Positions 28,081 to 40,436 of a stretch of DNA of 64,000 nucleotides are shown here, piece by piece (position 1 is the first letter of the stretch; each line of letters begins with the position of its first letter). Below the pieces are notes generated by a model that ran no database searches, had not been told where the DNA came from, and saw nothing but the letters and a program-made list of their open reading frames with translations. This stretch comes from Bacteroidia bacterium (GTDB lineage: Bacteria; Bacteroidota; Bacteroidia; Bacteroidales; Prolixibacteraceae): contig JANYKW010000087.1 of the NCBI GenBank assembly GCA_025358025.1, positions 62,001 through 126,000 on the forward strand. The letters are read 5' to 3'. Made by a program: the position numbers and the translations under genes.

Positions 28081-28181
28081 TTACACAAATAAACCCCGCA
28101 CTTCACCACAAATAGCACAAATAGCACAAATAAACCCCGGTTCCCACAACAATTAGCTTAAATGGATACAAATAAACCCCG
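28081..28181. repeat. ACAAATAAACCCCG direct repeats plus CACAAATAG words
   Basis: Exact 14-mer at 28085-28098, 28126-28139 and 28168-28181; (CACAAATAG)n between. Confidence 0.8.
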
Positions 28182-28196
28182 GCTCCCGCCACATGC

Positions 28197-33188: not shown

Positions 33189-33293
33189 GAGATATGAGAT
33201 ATGAGATATGAGATATGAGACATGACATAAGACGAGAGTTGTAACGAAAATAACTCTCATCTTATGTCTTATATCTCATATCTTATCTCTCTC
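33189..33293. repeat. GATATGA word array forming a long imperfect hairpin between convergent genes
   Basis: (GAGATAT)n at 33189-33240 and an inverted AACTCTCATCTTATGTCTTATATCTCATATCTTATCTC arm at 33252 onward; 11-nt loop; fills the lepA/response-regulator spacer. Confidence 0.8.
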
Positions 33294-35575: not shown

Positions 35576-35807
35576 TAAGTTATTAGCTATTAGCTTTTAG
35601 CAATTAGCTTTTAGCTATTAGCCTTTAGTGGAAAGCTTTTAGCAATTGGCTTTTGGACTTTAGCAGTATGATGCAAGCAGTTGGCTGATTGTGTTAGGCC
35701 TGTTCTGATCTGGTAACTACAGGAAGGGTGGGTTAATAGGGAAATCTACTTACAAAGAGTAAGCTAAAAGCTAACAGCTAATAGCTAAAAGCTTGAAGCT
35801 AATAACT
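35576..35807. repeat. TTAGCTATTAGC word array with distal inverted copy
   Basis: Left TTATTAGCTATTAGCTTTTAGCAATTAGCTTTTAGCTATTAGCC (35580 onward) and right inverted AAGCTAAAAGCTAACAGCTAATAGCTAAAAGCTTGAAGCTAATAA (35761 onward). Confidence 0.8.
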
Positions 35808-38252: not shown

Positions 38253-38834
38253 TTGAATATGAAGAAAATAGTCATACTTGCTTCGGGTTCTGGATCAAAT
38301 GCGGAGAATATTATTCGTTATTTCACAAATCATCCTTCCATCCTTGCCGACTCTGTATGGAGTAATAAACAGGATGCTTTTGTATTGGAAAGAGCTGAAA
38401 GACTGAATGTAGAAGCTCATCACTTTACAAGAAAAGAGTTAAATGAGACCGATCAGTTGTTAATCGAATTTAGGAAAAGAGAGATAGATCTGATTGTATT
38501 GGCAGGATTTTTACTCCTGCTACCACAAAAATTCGTCCGGGAATTCCTGGTTGTCAATATACATCCTGCACTTTTGCCTGCCTATGGTGGAAAAGGGATG
38601 TATGGCGAAAATGTTCATAGGGCAGTTTTGGCAAACAGAGAGACAGAATCAGGCATTACAATTCATTTGGTTGATGAGGTATATGATCATGGCAAAATAT
38701 TGTTCAGGGCAAAATGTCCGGTAGATTTTCAGGATACCCCCGAATCCCTGGCAGCCAAAATTCATGTGTTGGAGATGGAGCATTTTCCGCGGACCATTGA
38801 AGCTTTGCTTTTGGGAAGTACTTCGAGTACTTAG
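38253..38834 (+). CDS. purN: Phosphoribosylglycinamide formyltransferase
   Basis: IVILASGSGSNAENIIRYF, VNIHPALLPAYGGKGMYG, GITIHLVDEVYDHGKIL. Confidence 0.95.
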   Translation: MNMKKIVILASGSGSNAENIIRYFTNHPSILADSVWSNKQDAFVLERAERLNVEAHHFTRKELNETDQLLIEFRKREIDLIVLAGFLLLLPQKFVREFLVVNIHPALLPAYGGKGMYGENVHRAVLANRETESGITIHLVDEVYDHGKILFRAKCPVDFQDTPESLAAKIHVLEMEHFPRTIEALLLGSTSST

Positions 38835-38985
38835 AGTACTTTGAGTTGGGAGTACTTCGAGTTGGGAGTAGTTAGAGTTAAGAGACCTTCTGGTACATGG
38901 AGCATTTTGCCTCAATGATTATATGTTCGGAGTCCACCACTTGAAGTACTTGAAGTACTTGAAGTACTCGAAGTACTTTTTTTTA
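38816..38985 (+). repeat. AGTACTT word-array element, copy 1 (with conserved core)
   Basis: AAGTACTTCGAGTACTTAGAGTACTTTGAGT at left; core AATGATTATATGTTCGGAGTCCAC; inverted array ACTTGAAGTACTTGAAGTACTTGAAGTACTCGAAGTACTT then T8. Confidence 0.85.
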
Positions 38986-38987
38986 CG

Positions 38988-38995
38988 TATATTTG
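38988..38995 (+). promoter_or_regulatory. Bacteroidota -7 element TATATTTG for the S66 peptidase gene
   Basis: Exact TAnnTTTG immediately 3' of repeat copy 1, 17 nt upstream of the ATG at 39013. Confidence 0.5.
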
Positions 38996-39012
38996 GTATA
39001 AACATCTAAATT

Positions 39013-39924
39013 ATGAACTACCCCACATTCTTACAGCCAGGAGACAAAATAGCCATGGTTTCCGCGGCTGGGAAAGTTAACAGGGAGCCAGTCGAGAAGG
39101 CAAAGAAATTGTTGGAAGACGAGAAATTTGTGGTCGGGATTGGTGCGCATGCTTTCGATGCCTTCCATATATTTGCAGGTACTGATACTGACAGGGCGGA
39201 GGATTTGCAAAAGGCGCTTGATGATCCTGAAGTGAAGGCCATTTTCTTCACCCGCGGAGGTTATGGATCTTTTCGGACATTGGTTCAAATAAATTGGTCA
39301 GGTTTTTTTAATTATCCGAAATGGTTGGTAGGTTTCAGTGATATCACCGTATTTCATTCCTATCTTTCTGTTAGAGAAATGATCTCCGTACACGGTGTTA
39401 TGCCGGCATTCTATTTCGAAAATGGGGTAAGAACAGATAGTCTGGATCGTTTGCTGGATGTGCTAAGAGGTAAAGTAAATGAATATCAGCTAGATGCACA
39501 CAGAAATAACCGGACAGGAAAAAGTCAGGGAATTCTTGTTGGTGGTAATTTGTCCGTACTGCTAAGTTTAAGGGGTACGCCGCTTGATCAATCATTTGAC
39601 GGGAAAGTTCTTTTTATTGAGGATATTTTAGAATACGATTACCACATAGACAGGATTATGATGAACCTGTTGTATGGAGGGGCATTGGCTAATCTGGCCG
39701 GTTTGATTGTCGGCTATTTTTCTGACACAAAAACCGGCAGTACTCCCTTTGGGCTAAGTGCACTTGAGATAATCGGTGAGGCAGTTACCGGATATGATTA
39801 CCCGGTTGTATACGGTTTTCCTGCAGGACACGAGCTGCCAAACTATCCATTGATCATGGGGAAGGAGATTTCGCTGGATGTATCGGAAAATGAAGTCCTG
39901 ATCAGACAAACGCATTCAATGTAA
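39013..39924 (+). CDS. LD-carboxypeptidase (peptidase S66 family)
   Basis: LQPGDKIAMVSAAGKV, FTRGGYGSFRTL, LVGFSDITVFHSYL, GILVGGNLSVLLSLRGTP. Confidence 0.93.
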   Translation: MNYPTFLQPGDKIAMVSAAGKVNREPVEKAKKLLEDEKFVVGIGAHAFDAFHIFAGTDTDRAEDLQKALDDPEVKAIFFTRGGYGSFRTLVQINWSGFFNYPKWLVGFSDITVFHSYLSVREMISVHGVMPAFYFENGVRTDSLDRLLDVLRGKVNEYQLDAHRNNRTGKSQGILVGGNLSVLLSLRGTPLDQSFDGKVLFIEDILEYDYHIDRIMMNLLYGGALANLAGLIVGYFSDTKTGSTPFGLSALEIIGEAVTGYDYPVVYGFPAGHELPNYPLIMGKEISLDVSENEVLIRQTHSM

Positions 39925-39930
39925 CCAGAG

Positions 39931-40320
39931 ATGAAAAATGGGCCGGAAAAAAATTCAGACTTAGATGATGCAGGTAGGAGAGGTGAGGAGATGGCACGCG
40001 AATATTTGGTTGCAAAGGGATACAACATTTTGGACTTTAACTGGCATCATGGGCACAAGGAGATAGATATTGTTGCAAGACAAGGGGATGAAATCGTGGT
40101 TGTCGAGGTGAAAACCAGAGCGGAAAATTATGCCGAAGAACCTTGGGCGGCAGTAACTAACTTCAAAATCAGAAATATTGTTGAGGTAGCTGATGCCTGG
40201 CTGAGGATACACAAAGTCGATCTTGAAGCCAGGTTTGATGTGATCTCTATCCTGTTAAAAAAGGATGGAAGCTATTCGCTTGAACATTTTGAAGGGGCAT
40301 TTTTGCCACCTGTAAATTGA
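39931..40320 (+). CDS. YraN family (UPF0102) endonuclease-like protein
   Basis: GRRGEEMAREYLVAKGYNILDFNWHHGHKEIDIVARQGDEIVVVEVKTR. Confidence 0.93.
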   Translation: MKNGPEKNSDLDDAGRRGEEMAREYLVAKGYNILDFNWHHGHKEIDIVARQGDEIVVVEVKTRAENYAEEPWAAVTNFKIRNIVEVADAWLRIHKVDLEARFDVISILLKKDGSYSLEHFEGAFLPPVN

Positions 40321-40436
40321 GTACTTCGAGTACTTAGAGTACTTCAAGTACTTCAAGTTGTGGAATCCGAACGAATAATCATTTTGGCGTAAACACTCTA
40401 AGTACTTCAGGCACTCGAAGTACTCGAAGTACTTTC
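40318..40436 (-). repeat. AGTACTT word-array element, copy 2 (inverted relative to copy 1)
   Basis: Reverse complement contains AATGATTATTCGTTCGGATTCCACAACTTGAAGTACTTGAAGTACTCTAAGTACTCGAAGTACTC, about 58/65 identical by eye to copy 1. Confidence 0.85.

Follow-up and report, generated by a model that had tools for sequence, protein, structure and literature searches.

The window analysed here is a stretch of 64,000 nucleotides, in which a short row of genes is accompanied by two inverted copies of a non-coding repeat. A purN-like gene (38253 to 38834), an S66 peptidase-like gene (39013 to 39924) and a YraN-like gene (39931 to 40320) follow one another on the + strand, and a MmcQ-like gene lies beyond the next spacer. 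Copy 1 of the repeat (38816 to 38978, + strand) occupies the purN/S66 spacer with its core forward and GTTCGGAGTCC on the + strand. Its left arm (38816 to 38880, +) is built of AGTACTT words and GAGTTGGG words, its core (38881 to 38943, +) contains ..CAATGATTATATGTTCGGAGTCCACCACTTG, and its right arm (38944 to 38978, +) consists of inverted words and is followed by a T run. Copy 2 (40320 to 40434, - strand) occupies the YraN/MmcQ spacer with its core in reverse orientation; it comprises a left arm (40320 to 40358, +), a core (40359 to 40394, -) and a right arm (40395 to 40434, +). Both copies touch the coding sequence upstream. Copy 1 begins within purN and supplies its last codons and its stop codon (38834), and the first A of copy 2 is the final base of the YraN stop codon TGA (40320).

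The likeness of the two copies is well beyond chance. Copy 1 (38909 to 38977) and the reverse complement of copy 2 (40320 to 40388) are identical at 61 of 69 positions, and the 8 mismatches agree well with the roughly 7 in 65 nt that a sequence-only reading of this DNA had counted by eye. That reading had also described each copy as an AGTACTT array, a core and an inverted AGTACTT array, and both copies are indeed built this way. The cores match at 24 of 30 positions, compared with 19 in the best of 3000 spacer shuffles. The + strand of the window contains 17 AGTACTT words, where base composition predicts 5.6, and 13 of them fall inside the two copies. Comparison with related genomes shows that both stretches belong, as ordinary copies, to a family of non-coding foldback repeats, each about 116 bp long, that is found at the level of the genus.

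The genome holding the window (G000; 4.29 Mb in 221 contigs) is one of eight species, G000 to G007, of one uncultured Bacteroidales genus. The S66 protein is nearest to those of Prolixibacteraceae MAGs, at 48 to 50% identity, and the genome therefore probably belongs to that taxonomic family. The two genes enclosed by the copies are bystanders. The order and orientation of the purN, S66, YraN and MmcQ-like genes are unchanged in G001, G003, G004, G007 and the element-free G002. That the S66-YraN pair is bracketed by two inverted copies had raised the idea of a rearrangeable or mobilised cassette, which is extremely improbable and already contradicted, since synteny is identical where the repeats are absent, the S66-then-YraN adjacency is also present in other genera, and equivalent elements elsewhere enclose no common cargo. 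An inversion of the interval 38985 to 40318 is likewise not seen across five congeners; what flips between species is the core inside an element.

The family is present in seven of the eight species, with none in G002. A BLAST search with copy 1 returned 60 matches in G000, all of which contain an AGTACTT array, in most cases facing an inverted one across a centre that varies. The core pattern GTTNGGAGTCCATAACTTTA, allowing up to 3 mismatches, matched 11 times in G000, 30 in G001, 25 in G003, 34 in G004, 9 in G005, 7 in G006 and 30 in G007, and gave no match in G002. Its reversed control gave 0 to 4 matches in the genomes of the genus, and the pattern itself gave 0 to 4 in 33 genomes outside it. 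Nothing could be learned from a shorter core pattern, GTTCGGANTCCAC, at 2 mismatches, which matched 207 times vs 170 for its reversed control. A covariance model was built from 33 elements and 150 candidates were scored per genome, with strands counted separately; as the element is nearly palindromic, many places are counted on both strands. On this basis the model found 65 matches in G000, 98 in G001, 85 in G003, 91 in G004, 29 in G005, 53 in G006 and 105 in G007, again with no match in G002, and copy 2 of the window (G000:C109:102319-102434) scored 102 bits. Weaker matches to the model were found in two other genera (g18 and g15) among 140 genomes of the taxonomic family. Rfam returned nothing above the gathering threshold, only two sub-threshold miRNA-hairpin matches, and a literature search for the element word sequences gave no relevant match. 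The sequence-only reading had argued that the copies belong to an interspersed family, since they share a core and flanking arrays, and it is upheld by 7 to 34 core-pattern matches and 29 to 105 model matches per genome in seven of the eight congeners; the prospect of a genome without further copies, which would have spoken against it, is set aside by the several dozen present in each of these seven.

Across 89 core-bearing copies that were read, the median length is 114 bp, mostly between 114 and 118. A standard copy of about 116 bp contains four words of 9 to 10 nt, an AGTACTT word, a core of about 30 nt (..GTTCGGAGTCCATAACTTTA) and four inverted words. The 116-bp consensus is AAGTGCCTAAAGTGCCTAAAGTGnCTAAAGTGCCTAAAGTACTTnCGCnACAnnCAnnATTTGTTCGGAGTCCATAACTTTAGGCACTTTAGGCACTTTAGGCACTTTAGGCACTT, with ends AAGTGCC..GGCACTT. 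The arm words, four per arm, come from AGTGCCTAA, AGTGACTAA, AGTGAACTAA, AGTGCGCTAA, AGTATTTAA and others. Each species has altered these words in many of its copies, with the hairpin preserved. As a rule an element has a single AGTACTT, beside the core; in G000 and G004, where the arrays vary in length, this word fills the arms. An AGTACTT triplet pattern matched 107 times in G000, 160 in G004, 22 in G006, 6 in G007 and nowhere else in the genus. Hybrids are found among the G000 copies (L004, L027): one arm has AGTACTT words, the opposite arm AGTGCC-type words. Only in the AGTACTT-word species was the core seen duplicated in tandem, with arms between, at L254 and L258 in G004 and L020 and L021 in G000, with several units in L254. 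Such variable arrays and duplicated cores are what drift of a simple tandem repeat would produce, with 9-mer slippage in spacers and an inverted symmetry and core likeness arising by chance, yet this explanation is scarcely credible: it is contradicted by a shared core far above chance and by the clustering of G001, G003 and G007 copies at 114 to 118 bp with four words in each arm, and stands against changes on both sides that preserve hairpin pairing and against 6 to 9 inverted repeats per contig where Markov shuffles give 0 to 1. The sequence-only reading had likewise argued against such drift, from a shared core with arrays on both sides.

Inverted word arrays of other composition also occur in these genomes. 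In the window, a GAGATAT array with an inverted partner lies between LepA and a response regulator (33189 to 33290); the same spacer holds AGTGCC words with the core in G001, AGTACTT words with the core in G004, and GTTATGAG words in G003. At this site, then, one foldback family takes the place of another from species to species. A TTAGCTATTAGC array with an inverted partner occupies the HK/rnc spacer of the window (35580 to 35804). G000, G003 and G007 have it in clear form and G001 in a degenerate one, and it is absent in G004 and G002. Words of the type CACAAATAG lie in a spacer at 28107 to 28190, with related CACAAATT.. words in other spacers of G000, G001 and G003. Loci L102 to L111 of G003 and G001 carry many more inverted arrays of unrelated words (AAAGGATAAAGG, CACAGAGTTTCACAGAG, GTTTGAAATGTTTG, GGTCCCTGAGCGAAGTCGAAGG), with 8 or 9 inverted repeats per contig where Markov shuffles yield 0 to 1. 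Additionally, AGTGCCTAGAGTGCCTAAAGTACTT words without the core are found in another family of the class (L265, L272; genome G336, family f90), with 45 matches to the pattern in G336 and at least one match in 7 of the 395 genomes searched across the class.

The elements are predicted to fold into a strong hairpin. Folding of 61 full copies gave a median of -55.7 kcal/mol (z -10) with 37 arm-arm pairs, and the alignment contains 35 consensus pairs, of which 17 have changes on both sides. Within the alignment 94.9% of cells pair, compared with 18 to 52% after sliding of the partner. Genome-wide sharing of words may account for part of the covariation excess, as the complementarity of an arm to its own partner is only marginally above that to the arms of other copies in the same genome, so that pairing could be kept largely through a shared word lexicon and not by arm-by-arm compensation. 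A permutation test within elements gave 133 of 5000 in G004 and was not significant in the other three genomes; co-evolution of arms within single elements beyond the genome-wide lexicon is thus marginal and is not claimed here.

The position of the elements is tightly linked to stop codons. Of the stop-facing ends, 80 of 83 lie within 20 nt of a stop codon, at a median distance of 1 nt. By a simple ORF rule, 75 placed elements divide into 49 in codirectional, 17 in convergent and 9 in divergent spacers. In codirectional spacers, 47 of 49 are closer to the stop than to the next start (p 3e-13), and convergent spacers are occupied from stop to stop. Wherever the purN spacer was read, the element provides the purN stop codon. 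Runs of A before the element and of T after it are both enriched (p 1e-11 and p 2e-7).

At least 21 sites are common to two or more species, up to six. At the purN/S66 and YraN/MmcQ junctions, elements with other words are present in G001, G003, G004, G005 and G007, including orthologues of copy 1, and are absent in G002 and in other genera. The ftsA/ftsZ spacer is filled in G000, G001, G004 and G007 and empty in G003, G005, G002 and G009; argB/argE holds an element in six species and none in G002; carA/carB is filled in four species and has a different repeat in G005 and G006, where the spacer is occupied by ACGTTGCATGCAACGTCTCTAC palindromic repeats (L301 and L300). The sequence-only reading had offered separate colonisation of both spacers as one possibility, and this is supported by a dispersed family with shared sites and with empty orthologous spacers, such as those of G002 at purN/S66, YraN/MmcQ and argB/argE.

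At a single site, the arm words differ by species, being AGTGCCTAA or AGTACTTCG/AGTACTTAG. The orientation of the core also varies between species at several sites; at purN/S66 it is forward in G000, G004 and G007 and reverse in G003. Core identity between the purN and YraN copies within a genome averages 0.78, a mean that excludes G001, whose purN copy has a degenerate core, vs 0.71 for orthologues, and 1 of 120 pairings was as good. Taken over all sites, cores at orthologous positions still resemble one another somewhat more than cores at non-orthologous positions do (18.7 vs 14.7), so homogenisation would be only partial. We read the within-genome likeness as partial concerted evolution. 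A tree of six congeners gave no clear branching order, so AGTACTT may have taken over once or several times. A more radical possibility is that the arms are rewritten word by word, in concert across the genome and in complementary fashion, while orthologues in sister species keep their site, length and core and use different words. We regard this as quite unlikely. If true, it would call for a sequence-specific process that actively copies or converts words, or for a writer templated by the hairpin, neither of which has been described for REP-like elements; the further inverted word-array families of these genomes might then arise in the same way.

The family could also represent a non-autonomous transposable element, a MITE or one mobilised by IS200/IS605/RAYT functions, that inserts beside stop codons or terminators and is still moving. 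Terminal inverted repeats, short defined length, absence of coding sequence, multiple dispersed copies and filled vs empty orthologous sites are all features of such an element, and Y1 transposases occur in every member of the genus. However, target-site duplications of 3 to 8 bp were no more frequent than the permuted expectation, and neither the words nor the core were found in the 13 Y1_Tnp loci of the genus that were read, which adjoin different, mostly GC-rich palindromic repeats; a RAYT origin was rejected on these 13 loci. No parent transposon sharing the terminal repeats was seen in the fetched loci (about 1.1 kb flanks), and no copy was found in viral contigs with two exact patterns. 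This agrees with the sequence-only reading, in which no transposase was visible. As at least 21 sites are common to several species, recent movement is not needed, and we hold transposition of this kind to be unlikely. The RAYT-like Y1 genes themselves (L156 to L164, L173, L175 to L177, L180) mostly lie among their own genome-specific, mostly GC-rich palindromic repeats.

The alternative that the elements are dedicated bidirectional transcription terminators, selected in place and not mobile, is possible, if rather doubtful. The hairpin lies between an A-run and a T-run, convergent spacers are filled stop to stop, and the LepA/response regulator spacer holds a hairpin of some word family in four species (GAGATAT, AGTGCC, GTTATGA, AGTACTT). 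The enriched T-run is a feature of intrinsic terminators, but the loop of about 35 nt and the very long stem are atypical of the classical form, with its GC-rich stem of about 5 to 15 bp, short loop and U-tract. Additionally, termination requires neither the core nor the words, nothing equivalent is present at ftsA/ftsZ in species without the element, and elements sit inside likely operons. Strong termination is less likely at ftsA/ftsZ, argB/argE and carA/carB, since the genes flanking these elements are usually co-transcribed.

Several known repeats resemble the family in part. ERIC-like palindromes are imperfect, intergenic, about 120 to 130 bp long and found in transcribed positions; unlike in the family, their arms are not known to be tandem word arrays or to shift words by species, and the likeness is one of size and placement. 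Drosophila foldback (FB) elements have long inverted termini of short tandem repeats around a core, and they are eukaryotic transposons of kilobase size with target duplication, so the analogy is one of shape only. The REP/BIME repeats of E. coli, Pseudomonas and Stenotrophomonas are, like the family, intergenic palindromes in tens to hundreds of copies with compensatory changes, and roles in mRNA stability, termination and translation have been proposed for them. Only a fraction of them lie near stop codons, whereas nearly all copies of the family abut one. REPs are 20 to 40 bp long (PMC3733652). They bear a tag of the GTAG/CGTC type and are linked to RAYT genes, whereas the family is 116 bp long, with word-array arms and no tag or RAYT link: its consensus lacks the head tetranucleotide GTAG/CGTC/GGAG and is not a 20 to 40 bp palindrome, and no cognate Y1 gene flanked by the repeat was found at 13 loci, although many intergenic hairpin-forming copies exist. 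The TAACTGA repeats of Beggiatoaceae, Cyanobacteria and some Bacteroidetes form 7-nt intergenic arrays with a patchy distribution, as direct repeats, and in Ca. Maribeggiatoa lie mostly upstream of start codons (PMC4679880). The family differs in its inverted arms of 9 to 10-nt words around a conserved core, located downstream of stop codons, and does not fall under tandem direct 7-mers without a core (STRR).

Considering the dispersal, length, core, hairpin with compensatory change, abutment on stop codons, filled and empty sites and species-specific words that can be read from the genomes themselves, the family is probably a REP/ERIC-like foldback repeat that acts as an RNA hairpin at 3' ends or between cistrons and is homogenised by ectopic recombination. 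Once transcribed, the element would fold into a long hairpin where the upstream open reading frame ends, and this hairpin would brake translation at the stop codon, protect the 3' end of the mRNA, or partly terminate transcription in both directions. Inserted copies would be kept alike by ectopic recombination or gene conversion, the latter having been proposed for REP evolution, as the title of Higgins et al. 1988, cited in PMC12306157, indicates. Such exchange would carry one word type, AGTACTT, throughout the arms of G000 and G004; the core would be flipped when the inverted arms recombine. REPs at most 15 nt from a stop codon cause ribosomes to stall and reduce translation (PMC12306157). 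As nearly all elements have this spacing, a hairpin at the stop codon, as translation brake or 3' protection, is the best functional guess and a role that we infer.

Uncultured Bacteroidales thus have a defined family of structured repeats linked to stop codons, for which a covariance model and filled and empty orthologous sites are available. The turnover of species-specific words in both arms at fixed orthologous sites makes the long-standing question of how REP-like repeats are homogenised testable by sequence alone. If the hairpin acts like stop-adjacent REPs, the elements at ftsA/ftsZ, argB/argE and carA/carB would set the expression ratios of these genes.
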